NCBI RefSeq assembly: GCF_007753265.1
Contig: NZ_CP036349.1
Span: 3,009,363 to 3,073,362 of the forward strand
Source: Botrimarina mediterranea
GTDB lineage: Bacteria > Planctomycetota > Planctomycetia > Pirellulales > Lacipirellulaceae
Direction: 5' to 3'
DNA length: 64,000 bases
Shown: piece by piece, positions 17,151 to 24,467 of the stretch
How the letters are laid out: each line of letters opens with the position of its first letter
How positions within the stretch are numbered: position 1 is the first letter of the stretch
The notes under the pieces: model-generated
Seen by the model: the letters and a program-made list of their open reading frames with translations, nothing else
Told to the model about the DNA's origin: nothing
The model's database searches: none
Program-made: the position numbers and the translations under genes

Positions 17151-18494
17151 TTAAGAAGGCGATTCGGGCTCGTCCGGGATTGCTTTGCCGTGCGGGTCGG
17201 TCGCCGAGATCGAGGTCTCTTGGTCGAGCAGGTCGCGCATGGCGCGGTCGGTGATGTGCTCGAGACGCTCGGCCTCGGGGTGGATGCGGTCGGGCGCGAG
17301 GCCGGCGCGTTCAACGAGGTAGTGCTCCCAGAGGCGGTGGGAACGGACGAGTTCGCGGGCCTGGACGGCGCCTGCCTCGGTGAGCCGAACGCCGTGATGA
17401 TCGCGATCGATCAGGCCGCGGCGGCGCAGCTTCCATAGCACCACTCGCAGCGGCAGCGTCTGGCAGAGAATGTGGGCGCGCAGGGCCGCCTCGGTCTGGG
17501 CGATCGGCTCGGCGGAGGCCGACTGCTCGTCGGCCCTGTAGAGGACGCCGAGCACGTCCTCACCGAGAATCCGCAACGATAGTCTGGCGCGGCGCACGGC
17601 CCGCACGACGACGCCTTCCTTCGGCGAGAAGAAAAGGGCGGCCGAGAAAAAGAGGCCGACGACAACCGCCATCATGCCGGCCGTCGTCGTGCTCCGCAGT
17701 CCAAACCAGGCCGGGACCTCGACCGCAGCGAGGTGCCCTAGCACGGCCGAGGCCGCCGCGATCAGCGCGCCGAGCCAGATCATCGTGCTCAGCCGGTCGG
17801 TGAGCAGCCGGGCCGTCGCCGGCGGCGTTACGAGCATCGCCACCACGAGGATGTTGCCGACGCTCTCAAAACTCGCCACCGCGGTGACGGCCACCAGTGT
17901 CGTTAGCGAGTAGTGCATCAGGCTCGCGCTGAAGCCCGAGGTGGTCGCCAAGCCCGGATCGAACGCCGCGATCTTTAGCTCCTTAAAGAACAGCGTGACG
18001 TACAGCAGGTTCACCAGCGCCACCGCCGCCAGCGTGACGACGACGCGCGGGACTTGCCACCCCAGCACCTCCCAGGTGTCGAGCGGCGTCAGCTCAATGG
18101 CGCCGTAAAGGACGCAGCCTGGGTCGAGGTCCACATGGTCGGCCGCCTGGACGATCATCACCAGCCCAATGGCGAACAGCGACGTGAACACCACACCGAG
18201 CGACGCCCCCTCGTCCACCTCGCCGTAGCGATGGACCCATTCGGTGAGGAACGCCGTCGCGAGCCCGACCGCCACCGCGCCGACGAACATCGGTAGGCTG
18301 GCGCGCTCGCCCGTCAAGAAGAACGCCGCCGCTAAGCCCGGCAACACGGCGTGGCTGATGGCGTCGCCCAGGAGGCTCATCCGCCGCAGCACGAGGAAGT
18401 TGCCCACCAGCGACGCGGCGACGGCGCACAGCACCCCGGCGGCGATGATCCAGCCGTCGAGCGCCCAACTCCAAGCTAGCGGCAACGCGATCAT
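17151..18494 (-). CDS. Metal ABC transporter permease fused to a DtxR/MntR-like domain (second permease)
   Basis: 447 residues. Residues 1-290 form an ABC-3 (ZnuB/MntB) permease with about eight helices and the FLVLRRMSLLGDAISHAVLPG motif. Residues 310-430 are a winged-helix plus metal-dependent repressor dimerisation domain: SHRLWEHYLVERAGL and HPEAERLEHITDRAM, which keeps the His and the Glu-x2-Glu-His set that binds Mn/Fe in MntR and IdeR. It is the last gene of the metal-uptake operon and overlaps the first permease by four bases. The fused domain may sense metal and gate transport; that is inference. Confidence 0.88.
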   Translation of the reverse strand: MIALPLAWSWALDGWIIAAGVLCAVAASLVGNFLVLRRMSLLGDAISHAVLPGLAAAFFLTGERASLPMFVGAVAVGLATAFLTEWVHRYGEVDEGASLGVVFTSLFAIGLVMIVQAADHVDLDPGCVLYGAIELTPLDTWEVLGWQVPRVVVTLAAVALVNLLYVTLFFKELKIAAFDPGLATTSGFSASLMHYSLTTLVAVTAVASFESVGNILVVAMLVTPPATARLLTDRLSTMIWLGALIAAASAVLGHLAAVEVPAWFGLRSTTTAGMMAVVVGLFFSAALFFSPKEGVVVRAVRRARLSLRILGEDVLGVLYRADEQSASAEPIAQTEAALRAHILCQTLPLRVVLWKLRRRGLIDRDHHGVRLTEAGAVQARELVRSHRLWEHYLVERAGLAPDRIHPEAERLEHITDRAMRDLLDQETSISATDPHGKAIPDEPESPS

Positions 18495-19837
18495 TCAGTC
18501 GTCCCCCGAATCACGTGCGGGCTTGCCGGCGGCGCGACCGCGGAGGAGTCGTGGAGCAGCAGCTCAAGTTCGTGGATCGTCTCGGGGTCGAGAACGTGCT
18601 CGATCGCGTCGGCGCCGCGATCGACCTTGCCCGGGGCGACCTCGGCGTGGGTGATCAAATAAAGCTCCCACAGCCGGTGTTGCCGCGTCAGCCGCTTCGC
18701 TTCGACGGCGCCGCGGGCCGTCAGCCGCACGGCGTCTTGCGAGTCGAGCCTCACCAAGCCTTGCCTAGCGGCGCGACCGATCACGTGGCGAAGCTGCGGC
18801 TGCGACCAACTCCGGAGGGCCAACAGCCGGTCTCGCGGCGCGGCGTCGTCTTCGCGGTGCTCGGCGACCTCGTAAACGCTGCGTAACAGGTGCTCCATCT
18901 CGATGCCACGGAGGAACCATCGTCGTCGCAACCAGCGCAGCACCACGCCCCGCTTCATGCCGAAGAGGGCGCTAAGGACGAATGCGGCCGCAGCCACGAG
19001 GACGATCGTCGCCCCGGAAGGGAGTTTGGGGTAGCTGGCGCTCAGGATGGCGCCGACAAAAGAACTCAAACCGCCCAGCAGCGCGGCGATACGGGTCATC
19101 GTGCGGAGGTCTTCGGTCCAGAACCGCGCCGCGGCAGGCGGGATCACGAGCAGGGCGATCATCAGGATCAGACCCACCGCTTGCAGGCCGACAATCGTGA
19201 TCACGACCACCATCGCCATCAACGCCGCATCGAGCCAGCCGACCGGGTAGCCCCGCGAAGCGGCGAAGCCGGCATCGAAGCACAAGAGAGCGAGCTCCTT
19301 GAACAGCAGCAAGCTAACCAGCACACAGGCCGCCGACGCGCCGGCGATCAGCCAGGCGTCGCTCGACAGCATCGAGGCGGTCTTCCCGTAGATGAACGAC
19401 TCCAGCCCCGCCGCGTTACCGCCGACCTGTTGCGTGACGCCCAGCAGCGCGACGCCGGCGCCGAAGAAGACGCTGAGCACGATGCCCAGCGCCGCGTCCT
19501 CGCTGAGCCGTGTAAAGCGGCGCACCATCAAGATGGCGCCAACGCCAAGGACGCCGCTGATGGCGCCGCCGAGCAGCAAGATCGGCAACGACTTGCCGTC
19601 GCCCCACAGCGAAGAGCCCACCAGGAACGCCGTGGCGATGCCCGGTAGCGTCGCGTGGCTGAGGGCGTCGCCGATCAGGGCCCGCTTGCGCAGCAACGTA
19701 AAACTACCGACCACGCCGGCTCCAACGCCGAGGAGCGTCGCCCCGAGTACGACAACGCGGGTGTTGTAATCGCGGAGCAAGAGCACGTCGGCCCAAGCCA
19801 GAAGCGTTGGCCAGAGAAGGGCGATCGCTCCGCTCAC
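18491..19837 (-). CDS. Metal ABC transporter permease fused to a DtxR/MntR-like domain (first permease)
   Basis: 448 residues from GTG 19837, which overlaps the ATPase stop (GTGA); a longer in-frame extension upstream is only antisense sequence of the ATPase gene. Residues 1-300 are the ABC-3 permease (FTLLRKRALIGDALSHATLPG). Residues 320-440 repeat the DtxR-like layout with QHRLWELYLITHAEVAP and GADAIEHVLD; here the first Glu of the metal set appears to be Asp. Two different permeases with the same fusion suggest a heterodimeric channel that carries two metal-sensing modules on its cytoplasmic side. Confidence 0.87.
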   Translation of the reverse strand: MSGAIALLWPTLLAWADVLLLRDYNTRVVVLGATLLGVGAGVVGSFTLLRKRALIGDALSHATLPGIATAFLVGSSLWGDGKSLPILLLGGAISGVLGVGAILMVRRFTRLSEDAALGIVLSVFFGAGVALLGVTQQVGGNAAGLESFIYGKTASMLSSDAWLIAGASAACVLVSLLLFKELALLCFDAGFAASRGYPVGWLDAALMAMVVVITIVGLQAVGLILMIALLVIPPAAARFWTEDLRTMTRIAALLGGLSSFVGAILSASYPKLPSGATIVLVAAAAFVLSALFGMKRGVVLRWLRRRWFLRGIEMEHLLRSVYEVAEHREDDAAPRDRLLALRSWSQPQLRHVIGRAARQGLVRLDSQDAVRLTARGAVEAKRLTRQHRLWELYLITHAEVAPGKVDRGADAIEHVLDPETIHELELLLHDSSAVAPPASPHVIRGTTE

Positions 19838-20652
19838 AGGGCGCGCTCCCGGCGCCGCATCGCCTCGGTCGCCTCGTCGAGGAGCGTCAGTCGGCCGCCG
19901 TAGGTTTTCTGGAGATTCGCCGGCGTGAAGACCTCCGCCACGGGACCGTAGGCGACGACGCGCATGTTGAGCAGCAGCACGCTGTCGAAGTAGTCGGGCG
20001 TCGTCTGCAAATCGTGGTGGACCACCAGCGCCGTCTTCCCTTGGGCGCGCATGTCGCGGAGCAACTCGACGATCGCCGCCTCGGTCGACGCGTCCACGGC
20101 CGCAAAGGGCTCGTCCATAAAGTAGAGGTCCGCGTCCTGCACCAGTGCGCGGGCGAGGAACGTCCGCTGCTGCTGGCCGCCGGAGAGCTGGCTGATCTGC
20201 CGGCCGGCGAGGTCCGCCATGCCGACGCGCTCGAGCGCCGCCATCGCCCGCTTGCGGTGCTCGGCGCCGGGACGCTTCATCCAACCGATCTCGTGGTAAA
20301 GGCCCATCGTCACCACGTCGAGAGCGTCGATCGGGAAATCCCAGTCCACGCTCTCACGCTGCGGCACGTAGCCGACGCGGCCGCGGTTCTCGTCGTAGGG
20401 CTTGCCGAAGACGTGGACCCGGCCCGAGGCCCGCGGCGTGAGGCCGAGGATTGCCTTGAGGAGCGTGCTCTTGCCGGCGCCATTGGGGCCGACCACGCCG
20501 ATCAGCTGCCCCGGCGCCGCGTCGAAGCCTACGTCCCAGATCACCGGCTTGCGGTGGTAAGCGACCGTCAGGTCGTGGACCGATAGCGGAACCGACGGGT
20601 CGTCAGCCGGAGCGATCGGTGCGTGGGTCGGCTCGTTGCTCATTCGTCGCAC
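19834..20652 (-). CDS. Metal ABC transporter ATP-binding protein
   Basis: 272 residues with all ABC ATPase motifs: GPNGAGKST (Walker A), LSGGQQQR (signature), DLYFMDEPF (Walker B) and the switch His in LVVHHD. The YVPQRESVDWDFPI stretch is typical of Mn/Zn (MntB/ZnuC) ATPases. It overlaps the binding-protein gene by 13 bases and the first permease by four, so the four genes are one translationally coupled operon. Confidence 0.93.
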   Translation of the reverse strand: MRRMSNEPTHAPIAPADDPSVPLSVHDLTVAYHRKPVIWDVGFDAAPGQLIGVVGPNGAGKSTLLKAILGLTPRASGRVHVFGKPYDENRGRVGYVPQRESVDWDFPIDALDVVTMGLYHEIGWMKRPGAEHRKRAMAALERVGMADLAGRQISQLSGGQQQRTFLARALVQDADLYFMDEPFAAVDASTEAAIVELLRDMRAQGKTALVVHHDLQTTPDYFDSVLLLNMRVVAYGPVAEVFTPANLQKTYGGRLTLLDEATEAMRRRERAL

Positions 20653-21752: not shown

Positions 21753-22244
21753 GTGACGCCGCAGCGTGCGGCGAGCCACTTCTCGACGGAACACGAAGCT
21801 GTGCCCTCACCTGTTACGCCACGCGCCGCCGCCCAGCAAGCCTCCAAGCCCTTCAAGCGGACGCGCAGCGACCACGCCAACGAGACCGCCGAGGACTACG
21901 TCGAGGCGATCGCCGAGACGATCGCCCGCAGCGGCGTCTGCCGCAACGCCGACCTGGCCCGGCTGTTCGCTGTCAGCCACGTGACCGTCAACAAGACGAT
22001 CGGTCGGCTGCAAAAGGAAGGCCTCGTCGCGACCGAGCCCTACGGCCCCGTCGCGCTGACCCCCGCGGGCGAGAAGCTCGCCGCCGAGGCGAGCCGGCGG
22101 CACGAGACCGTCCTCGCTTTCCTGCTGACGCTCGGCATTAGCCAAGCGGTCGCCGAGGTCGATTCCGAGGGGATCGAGCACCATGTCAGCGACGAGACGC
22201 TACGGGCCTTCCGCCGGCACATCGACGCCCAGACGGACCGCTAG
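21753..22244 (+). CDS. mntR: Manganese-responsive regulator MntR (DtxR family)
   Basis: 163 residues from GTG. After an N-terminal extension of about 45 residues comes the winged helix (NETAEDYVEAIAETIARSG, ADLARLFAVSHVTVNKTIGRLQKEGLV) and the dimerisation helix with RHETVLAFLLTLGI and EVDSEGIEHHVSDETL. The Asp/Glu in the first helix, the His of RRHE and the Glu-x2-Glu-His-like DSEGIEHH set match the metal ligands of MntR. It probably represses the divergent Mn transporter operon when manganese is sufficient. A nested palindrome starts 31 bases after the stop. Confidence 0.88.
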   Translation: MTPQRAASHFSTEHEAVPSPVTPRAAAQQASKPFKRTRSDHANETAEDYVEAIAETIARSGVCRNADLARLFAVSHVTVNKTIGRLQKEGLVATEPYGPVALTPAGEKLAAEASRRHETVLAFLLTLGISQAVAEVDSEGIEHHVSDETLRAFRRHIDAQTDR

Positions 22245-22275: not shown

Positions 22276-22592
22276 TCTGAGCCGTGGGCGGTAGCCCTCG
22301 GAGTGGAGGACGAGTTGCGCTGCCCTCCGAGGGCTACCCAGGATTATGCAAGAGCTAGCAGTTCAAAGTTGGGCGGATTAAAGAAGCGTTAGCGCGATGT
22401 GTCCCCCTCCTTCTTCAGAGGGAGGGGCTAGGGGAGGGTGCTGAAGCGGGTACTAGGGTTCTACCCCCTCCCCTAGCCCCTCCCCCGAAAGCGGTGGAGG
22501 GGGACACAACGCGCTAACGCTTCTTGGATTAGGCCACCTAGCCGACTCGCGCTGCTAGCCCTTGCATAATCCTGTACCGCCCACGGCTCAGA
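22276..22592. repeat. Concentric set of at least four palindromes (317 bp)
   Basis: Layers from outside in: 22276-22293 with 22575-22592 (18 of 18), 22340-22361 with 22552-22573 (21 of 22), 22381-22410 with 22496-22525 (29 of 30), and 22420-22438 with 22466-22484 (19 of 19). A separate side hairpin pairs 22290-22303 with 22325-22338. The third layer (22381-22525) is bordered exactly by the direct repeat ggatta (22375-22380 and 22526-22531). The layers share no sequence, so it looks like successive insertion of different palindromic elements into each other's loops. No gene lies between 22244 and 22761. Confidence 0.92.
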
Positions 22593-22760
22593 CGCTACGG
22601 TATGGCGAAGCGTGCTCTAGTTCTCGATCACCGCGGCGGGTGTGACACACCTTTGTCGCTCGCGCGATCCCGTCTTTCCCAGGGTTTTCTTGATCGGGCG
22701 GCGCCCGCAATTAGCCTCCGACTCGCTGATCGTTTCGATCCCGAGTCCGGAGAGTTGGTT

Positions 22761-24467
22761 ATGCGATTCTGCGTCGTTGCCGCTGCCGTGGCGTCGCTGC
22801 TGGCTCCAACCGCTAGCCAGTCGCAACTCCTCGTCACCGAGGTGATGTACGACCCGGCTTCGGACGAAAGCCGCTGGGAGTGGATCGAGGTCCACAACAC
22901 GGGAGCCGTTGCGATCGATCTCGATGGCTACGTCATCGACCGCGTTGGCGACCGCGCACGCACCACGGTGACGGCGAACATCCTCAGCAACCCGCTGCTC
23001 GGTTCCGCCGTCGTCAATAACCCGACGGTGCTGCCCGCAGGCGGGATCGCCGTGCTCTACAATGGCCCCGGGCTGAGCTACGACCGCGGCCGATTCCGCG
23101 CCGCATGGCCGCAGATGCCGGCAGGGGCGACGCTGATTGGCGTCGAGGGTTGGTCGTCGAACGCCCTCACCAACGCGCCCAAGGGGTCGGATTACGCTCC
23201 TTCGCTCCCCGCCATGACCATTGGCTTGTGGGCGGACGTGGAGTCGTATCGGCTCGACGCCGCCGACTTCGGCACGCCGAGCAGCGCTGATCGCCGAGTG
23301 TTCCGTGTCGCCAACGCTGCCGCCGCGTTTGGGTACGACGACGACGCCCCGTGGCGCGACCCGCAGGGAAAATCGGCAATCCATTACATCAGTGGGCCGG
23401 TCTTTTCCCCGACGAGTTGGGGCCGCAGCAATGCGGGTTACGGCGGAGCGACGGCGAGCTCCAAGACCTTCGTCCCCGAGCCCATCAACGCCGGCGACTA
23501 CGGCAGTCCCGGGATGGTCCCGTCCGGCACGCCCGCGCGTCCCGGACTCATGATTACCGAGATCCTGTACGACTCGGCGTCGAACACGGGCGCCGGCAAC
23601 GAATGGGAGTGGGTCGAGGTGTTCAACTCGGGCCCGTCGATCGACTTCGCGGCGACGCCCTACTGGTTCGATGACGACGACCAAGCGGCGCTCACCGCGG
23701 CGAACCTGACGACCGGCTCGATCGCGTCGGGGGGCGTCGCCGTATTGTTCAACGCCTCCGCCGCCAGCATCGATCGGATACGGGACGCCTGGGATCAACC
23801 CGGCGAGGCGCCGATCAACTGGATCGCCGTCAGCGAGTGGCCGGCGCTCGCCAACGGCGGCGACGCGGTCGGTCTCTGGAACAGCGGCGCCCCCTACGCG
23901 GCGGACAAAGCGGGGGAGGAACCGACCTTCGCCAACGCCGTGGCAAGCATCGCCTACGACGACTCGTCGCCCTGGCCGACCGGCGTCAATGGCGACGCGA
24001 TCCGCCTGTCCAACCTCGGCAGCGATCCCGCCGACCCGGGGGCCTGGGCCCGCGCCCGTGGGGCCTACGCCGACCCGCAGGCCTACCGCTCGGCGGACGT
24101 GCTCGCGCCCGGCGGCGTGGTCGATAACGCGGGCGGTGACCACGGCAGCCCCGGCTACCACTGGCCGGACATCTACCCGCCGCTGCCCGGCGACTACAAC
24201 AACGACGGCCGCGTCGACGCCGCCGACTACACGGTTTGGCGGGACAACAAGCCGCTGCCGACCGAGACCGCCAGCGTGGGCGTCAACGACGCCGCCGACT
24301 ACGCCGTCTGGCGGGCCAACTACCGCGGCGCGGGGCTGGGCGGGGCGCGGGCCGTTCCCGAGCCCACGGCAGCCCTCTCCGTCGCCATCGGTCTGATGGC
24401 TTTCGGCCGGCGGGGACGCCGCCTCGGATCGGGCCCAATCGCAGCGACCAGACCGCCGCGGTCATGA
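22761..24467 (+). CDS. Secreted lamin-tail-domain protein with dockerin and PEP-CTERM tail
   Basis: 568 residues from ATG 22761 (GGAG eight bases upstream; signal peptide MRFCVVAAAVASLLAPTASQS). Two lamin tail domains are visible, each opening with LLVTEVMYDPAS or LMITEILYDSAS and followed by WEWIEVHNTG or WEWVEVFNSG. Near residue 490 is a dockerin-type calcium loop DYNNDGRVDAADYTVWRDN; the second loop (VNDAADYAVWRANY) has lost its calcium residues. The end is AVPEPTAALSVAIGL then an Arg-rich stop, the PEP-CTERM signal. Likely a surface or matrix protein; partners are unknown. Confidence 0.87.
   Translation: MRFCVVAAAVASLLAPTASQSQLLVTEVMYDPASDESRWEWIEVHNTGAVAIDLDGYVIDRVGDRARTTVTANILSNPLLGSAVVNNPTVLPAGGIAVLYNGPGLSYDRGRFRAAWPQMPAGATLIGVEGWSSNALTNAPKGSDYAPSLPAMTIGLWADVESYRLDAADFGTPSSADRRVFRVANAAAAFGYDDDAPWRDPQGKSAIHYISGPVFSPTSWGRSNAGYGGATASSKTFVPEPINAGDYGSPGMVPSGTPARPGLMITEILYDSASNTGAGNEWEWVEVFNSGPSIDFAATPYWFDDDDQAALTAANLTTGSIASGGVAVLFNASAASIDRIRDAWDQPGEAPINWIAVSEWPALANGGDAVGLWNSGAPYAADKAGEEPTFANAVASIAYDDSSPWPTGVNGDAIRLSNLGSDPADPGAWARARGAYADPQAYRSADVLAPGGVVDNAGGDHGSPGYHWPDIYPPLPGDYNNDGRVDAADYTVWRDNKPLPTETASVGVNDAADYAVWRANYRGAGLGGARAVPEPTAALSVAIGLMAFGRRGRRLGSGPIAATRPPRS

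Follow-up and report, generated by a model that had tools for sequence, protein, structure and literature searches.

The question raised by this locus is how four palindromic layers came to lie one inside the other within a single intergenic block of 317 bp in Botrimarina mediterranea. The block occupies 22276-22592 of the window, by which we mean the whole stretch of 64,000 nucleotides analysed (positions 3009363-3073362 of the 5.87-Mb single-contig genome). It lies directly downstream of an iron-dependent repressor gene (21753-22244, with its stop at 22244) and ahead of a lamin-tail-domain gene (ORF 22602-24467). An earlier note on this DNA described arm pairs and a GGATTA repeat (22375-22380 and 22526-22531), which are found at their reported places, and folding bears out the structure, both as RNA (-230.2 kcal/mol, z -17.0) and as DNA (-129, z -18.7), with 0 of 100 shuffles as good in either case. 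A known structured RNA was considered as the identity of the nest and rejected, since no Rfam family reached its gathering score; the Rfam scan gave 56 matches to E = 1, mostly to microRNA models.

A search of the genome with the whole block gave at least 89 matches, with 40 of 170 first-look candidates scored. One covers 317/317 bases at 100%, a second spans bases 1-316 at 70% and corresponds to the composite of L005 on the opposite strand, and many others span single layers. At full length and high identity the block is hence found at one place only in its own genome. Searching the layers separately, as the earlier note had proposed, showed that A and D (defined below) occur alone and that B occurs in other hairpins.

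We regard it as very probable, from sequence comparison, that a MITE-like element (B) was inserted into a REP-like hairpin (A), most likely through the DDE transposase of a 968-bp IS acting in trans, with two inner palindromes (C and D) as cargo. The process would have started from hairpin A standing between the repressor and lamin-tail-domain genes; the non-autonomous B (236 bp) would have entered the right arm of A and duplicated 4 bp, TACC, and C and D would have arrived inside B. The features are as follows, in window coordinates and with no strand assigned.

22276-22303: left arm of the REP-like hairpin A, comprising layer 1 together with an arm of the side hairpin, 28 bp long in the rejoined empty site, seen in insert-free copies L026-L028 and fitting GAGCCGNNNGCGNYAGCNNNCGG at 22279
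22304-22324: loop of hairpin A, 21 nt, from folding of the rejoined site
22325-22338: upper part of the right arm of hairpin A, ending with the first TACC, from the rejoined-site hairpin
22335-22338: target duplication TACC, copy 1, a direct repeat at the ends of B
22339-22574: MITE-like element B, 236 bp, with ends CAGGATTATGCAA...TTGCATAATCCTG common to the 968-bp IS and the 133-bp elements, carrying layers 3 and 4
22375-22380: left copy of GGATTA, inside B and not a general target duplication, from the comparison of nine composites
22381-22395: left arm of layer C, AAGAAGCGTTAGCGC, with 16 of 17 genome matches (0-1 mismatch) in B composites
22402-22504: layer D, a C-rich/G-rich palindrome that occurs also without B in other stems
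22511-22525: right arm of layer C, from arm pairing and the C-arm pattern search
22526-22531: right copy of GGATTA, from the comparison of nine composites
22575-22578: target duplication TACC, copy 2, a direct repeat at the ends of B
22579-22592: base of the right arm of hairpin A, from the rejoined-site hairpin

Removal of 22339-22574 together with one TACC leaves a single hairpin with 28-bp arms and a 21-nt loop, in which 22276-22303 pairs with 22325-22338 plus 22579-22592. The outer layer and the side hairpin, formerly taken as separate, are therefore one hairpin, which stands intact and free of any insert at L026, L027 and L028. The first ~60 bases of the block match 13 places in the genome, with the next layer absent from the match, and we read four of them (L026-L028 and L030), all lacking the insert. 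We call this layer REP-like because its arm pattern is present in high copy number, because a second subtype exists and because hairpins of the pattern flank a Y1 transposase gene (at L034). The common arm pattern, with at most one mismatch, has 397 matches in the genome against 12 in the control, and in the congeners G001 and G003 the counts are 225 against 13 and 81 against 12, respectively, while G002 is at control level (6 against 6). The second subtype, A' (GGCGAGCCGGNAGCGTYAGCG), has 212 arm matches against 16 in the reversed control.

The second layer is bounded by ends that are shared with a family of elements. Allowing up to 3 mismatches, the end sequence CAGGATTATGCAANNGCTAGCA has 53 matches in the genome and 0 in the reversed control, and paired ends bound 26 elements. 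Five of these are IS copies, four with a length of 968 bp and the fifth, which contains a run of N, with 946 bp; nine are elements of 133 bp, ten are composites of 236-267 bp, the window's own included, one is a composite of 1127 bp (L036) and one a remnant of 78 bp (L070). Not counted among the 26 are L011, a degenerate composite whose ends are altered and whose flanks look complementary, and a partial IS copy (5206856-5207262). The 133-bp elements have the same ends as B around a different palindromic core, indicating that cores were exchanged at some time. At L066 a second, partial IS copy (1113-1563) lies beside the full one with one N at the junction, and the sequence that follows the full copy is identical to the right flank of L063, an arrangement that may reflect either recombination or an assembly effect.

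The 968-bp IS encodes a 287-aa protein, identical in four copies, which matches Pfam DDE_Tnp_1 (2.1e-13; 50.9 bits against a cut-off of 23). An alignment of seven sequences has D103, D175 and E236 among its invariant columns, and these residues probably represent the catalytic triad. The protein scored below the cut-off of every NCBIfam family listed (IS1182, 40.1 bits against 270; IS982, 34.5 against 130; IS5_3, 30.3 against 110), and as no IS5, IS982 or IS1182 cut-off was passed we do not file the element under IS5. A search of solved structures with the transposase profile returned a single match that is not credible (E = 0.83). With its 236 bp, B itself has no room for a transposase gene, and no ORF of at least 80 aa is listed as overlapping 22339-22574. 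The DDE transposase of the 968-bp IS, encoded in the same genome, most likely moves B in trans.

The earlier note had suggested looking for REP-associated Y1 transposases. Y1_Tnp scores above its cut-off at five places in the genome, one of them with an internal stop. The gene at L034 (1245-1866; an ORF of 151 aa with an HVHV motif) has A-pattern hairpins of another subtype on both sides, and a weaker arm is seen at L033. The L034 gene is a candidate for moving the REP-like layer and may thereby account for the spread of hairpin A. That a Y1 transposase also moved the block is extremely unlikely: despite these A-like flanks, and despite a Y1 place (L035) ~2.4 kb from the composite L004, B carries inverted repeats at its termini, is flanked by a 4-bp target duplication and has ends in common with a DDE IS, and no arm of B, C or D turned up within ~1.5 kb on each side of the five Y1 loci. 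The IS with the DDE transposase fits best as the mover of B.

The members of the family sit mainly in REP-like palindromes. Reading the flanks by eye, we placed 24 of the 26 elements in A or A' arms, that is, in REP-like stems, in agreement with the proposal of a mobile element family that prefers hairpins. The score of the rejoined-site hairpin reaches 12 or more for 20/26 elements, compared with 26 of 2977 positions drawn at random from the window (2% in a smaller control of 300). Target duplications of 4 bp are exact in 17 elements and agree in 3/4 bases in four (L008, L041, L055 and L070). Five elements have none, three of them with the hairpin tip missing (L004, L036 and L068) and two otherwise (L019 and L059). 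The window's B lies in the right arm of A, at the core GC|TACC|GC, and the elements of L005 and L006 lie in the left arm. The palindromic element within another with target duplication that the first reading proposed is thus confirmed for layer 2 in layer 1, with TACC as the duplicated sequence, but the site is the stem of A and not its loop.

Some elements depart from this pattern or count for less. The element at L059 (1501-1633) is the only one of the 133-bp form that seems to lie within a coding region and not in a hairpin (score 5), and L019 has a REP-like arm on one side only (score 7). L040 and L014 have REP-like arms by eye, yet score just 5 and 9. L063 and L066 have a common right flank, so the two are not fully independent. 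The local 8-mer GCGNYAGC was also tried as the whole target and rejected; it occurs in 74 copies in the window alone and is therefore insufficient to explain 24/26 elements in REP-like stems.

The third and fourth layers, C and D, are present in all ten aligned composites and are most diverged in L014. With 0-1 mismatch the C-arm pattern has 17 matches in the genome, one of which is outside the B composites, and within the C arm is GCGTTAGC, a fit to the core of the REP-like arm. Aligned composite arms fall into two types whose middle section is swapped between copies. The composite arms of L006 and L004 are mosaics, and the two arms of L006 differ in the middle section of the palindrome; such mosaics suggest recombination between copies. 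The repeat GGATTA, formerly read as a target duplication around the third layer, matches at 6/6 bases only in the window's copy among nine composites compared, the other eight agreeing in 1 to 4/6 (L014 and L036, in which the right-hand match is absent, were excluded). This duplication looks coincidental, and the real one is TACC (22335-22338 and 22575-22578), which had been missed.

These observations bear on the possibility that the nest was built from four separate palindromic elements, inserted successively, each into the loop of the last. Layer 2 is indeed an insertion with duplication, D occurs in other stems without B, the 133-bp elements combine the same ends with another palindromic core, a sister IS (IS', below) enters loops and also layer D of the composite L036, and at L074 a C-like arm adjoins a D-like palindrome with B absent. 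Against this stand the presence of C inside B composites at 16/17 places, the restriction of the GGATTA duplication to the window's copy and the position of B in the stem of A, and we judge such serial insertion improbable. Insertion of B into hairpin A, with layers 3 and 4 travelling inside the MITE-like element, would replace the four stacked insertions of the first reading. D-like palindromes (CCCCTCCCCTAGCCCCTCCC type) are also seen without B in several contexts (L020, L021, L023, L025, L071-L075 and L078), and no target duplication is visible at those loci.

The sister IS' has a length of 951 bp, is present in four copies and encodes a transposase 48-49% identical to that of the 968-bp IS. 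Three copies lie in hairpin loops with exact 5-bp duplications (L088, L090 and L091; scores 11, 14 and 11), and the fourth lies inside layer D of L036 with no duplication (score 9). The preference for loops formerly proposed therefore does not hold for the window's insertion, which is in a stem, but it does hold for three of the four IS' copies and for all six copies of an IS in G122 (below). L036 equals L014 over 88 nt on each side, with IS' replacing the 65 nt between. The locus (L036:1501-2627; 644137-645263 of the genome) forms a nest three deep, of hairpin A', a composite MITE-like element and the 951-bp IS', the last occupying the exact place of the inner palindrome's tip.

Certain copies have lost the hairpin tip and lack a target duplication, their flanks being complementary instead of repeated. 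They include L004 (GGTA/TACC), L068 (GTGA/TTAC), the outer level of L036 and the IS' within L036, and in other genomes L230 of Lacipirellula limnantheis (TCCG/CGGA) and L212 of another planctomycete. Such copies fit either an insertion into each arm with later recombination of the two copies, or a single insertion across the folded hairpin. Among the flanks of the 26 elements (~45 nt each side) we saw no locus with both arms occupied. If the transposases of this planctomycete IS family recognised the folded hairpin (cruciform or single strand) instead of sequence, and some cut across the stem and replaced the tip, concentric nests would arise in one step. The complementary flanks of these copies point in this direction, as does the exact substitution of IS' for the middle 65 nt of L014 between 88 + 88 identical nucleotides. 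We nevertheless find it rather unlikely, because one-arm insertion with duplication predominates (17/26 exact here and 15/18 in L. limnantheis) and because two insertions with subsequent recombination would leave the same ends. Insertion of B into one arm of hairpin A, the preferred reading, has these tip-lost copies as a concrete signature to explain.

Related elements were found beyond this genome. Transposase matches (E up to 1e-20) occur in 11 of 246 genomes of the order, its own included, and in 0/3 congeners. With at most 2 mismatches, B ends have any match in 8 of 97 genomes searched, again including its own, and none in the congeners G001-G003. L. limnantheis (G028) has 18 related IS copies, mainly in stems, of which 15 have an exact 4-bp duplication; the score is at least 12 in 17/18 and at least 10 in 18/18, compared with 20 and 29, respectively, of 1080 random flank positions. 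In G122 all 6 IS copies lie in short hairpins of the CCCTCTCCC...GGGAGAGGG type with a 5-bp duplication across the loop. Their scores are 6-14, with at least 10 in 5/6 (L204 scores 6), the control being 64 of 2977 positions taken at random in the window; as the flanks of L202 and L206 are similar, these two are not fully independent. The use of stems by the 968-bp IS and the L. limnantheis IS, and of loops by IS' and the G122 IS, would account for a palindrome within a palindrome. As family members use hairpins of different sequence, in stem or loop, the choice between sequence and structure recognition by DDE transposases is directly testable.

For the remaining relatives the picture is more scattered. 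Ends were sought in nine single relatives and none were found for five (L189, L193, L196, L198 and L201). Three single-copy relatives lack an exact duplication (L190, which equals L211, with score 6; L191, which equals L212, with 15; and L197 with 9), and in L192 (equal to L213) ends were found with a flank too short to score. By eye, an element end pair in G038 is spread over two contigs with an A'-type target TGAC, and the element of G031 (L157) occupies the loop of a CCCCTCCC hairpin. A contig search with a single transposase protein confirmed nothing, and one with the transposase alignment gave 37 loci. We tried 32 of them, excluding the short matches L243-L247, and found ends in 21; the 11 without ends were left out. 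Transposase relatives are thus present in several planctomycete groups, with hairpin use checked in a few genomes.

MITEs of IS elements are short, possess the terminal repeats of a resident IS, are flanked by a target duplication and occur in several copies. B resembles them in being short, in its resident-IS ends, target duplication and several copies, and in having no transposase gene, but inside it lie other palindromes in a stack (C and D; the 133-bp form has a different core) instead of an IS with an internal deletion. REP elements have REP-associated Y1 transposases (RAYT). Hairpin A is similar in its many copies and in the related hairpins that flank the Y1 gene of L034. REPs are described as 20-40 bp long in the available text of PMC3733652, which also lists REP superfamilies with members in Planctomycetes; hairpin A differs from that size with its 28-bp arms and 21-nt loop. 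The same paper gives REPs a conserved tetranucleotide tag, GTAG/CGTC. Nearly all copies of REP-targeting IS (IS1397, ISKpn1, IS621, ISPsy8, ISPpu9/10 and ISRm22) lie in repeated extragenic palindromes, and REP targeting is reported for elements of the IS3, IS110, IS4, IS256 and IS5 families, according to the available text of Tobes and Pareja 2006 (PMC1525189). The 968-bp IS family is comparable in that nearly all of its copies are in REP-like palindromes (24/26 by flanks). It differs in its occurrence in planctomycetes, in a transposase with DDE_Tnp_1 that passes no listed NCBIfam cut-off, and in ends that are carried also by short elements, themselves strong fold-backs; such fold-back elements together with hairpin targeting would produce concentric nests. 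The family is not described in the available parts of either PMC1525189 or PMC3733652. Titles and abstract openings in the open-access collection searched likewise revealed no paper on it or on such nests in planctomycetes.

IS1111-attC elements target the attC hairpins of integrons and represent an IS group specialised on structured sites. The present family likewise uses structured sites, but its transposase class is different. A planctomycete family is added to the IS elements that target REP-like hairpins, and a puzzling nest becomes a readable record of one insertion with its target, donor family and empty sites.

The locus itself is empty in two congeners, as the orthologous intergene of G001 and G003 contains neither A nor B; in G002 the orthologous gene adjoins other genes and is uninformative on the locus. 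By eye, G001 has a different, shorter hairpin at this place. Together with the position directly downstream of the repressor gene and the very strong fold, this hairpin would be in keeping with a structure kept for a role such as transcript termination or mRNA stabilisation for that gene. The absence of A and B from the same intergene in G001 and G003 and of any Rfam family above its gathering score makes a retained function very unlikely. Under insertion of B into hairpin A, intergenic hairpins would probably serve as harmless targets. Near the separate iron-dependent repressor gene, at 17151-20284 of the window, are two permease-like ORFs of a probable metal ABC transporter, which by eye seem to have C-terminal repressor-like extensions.
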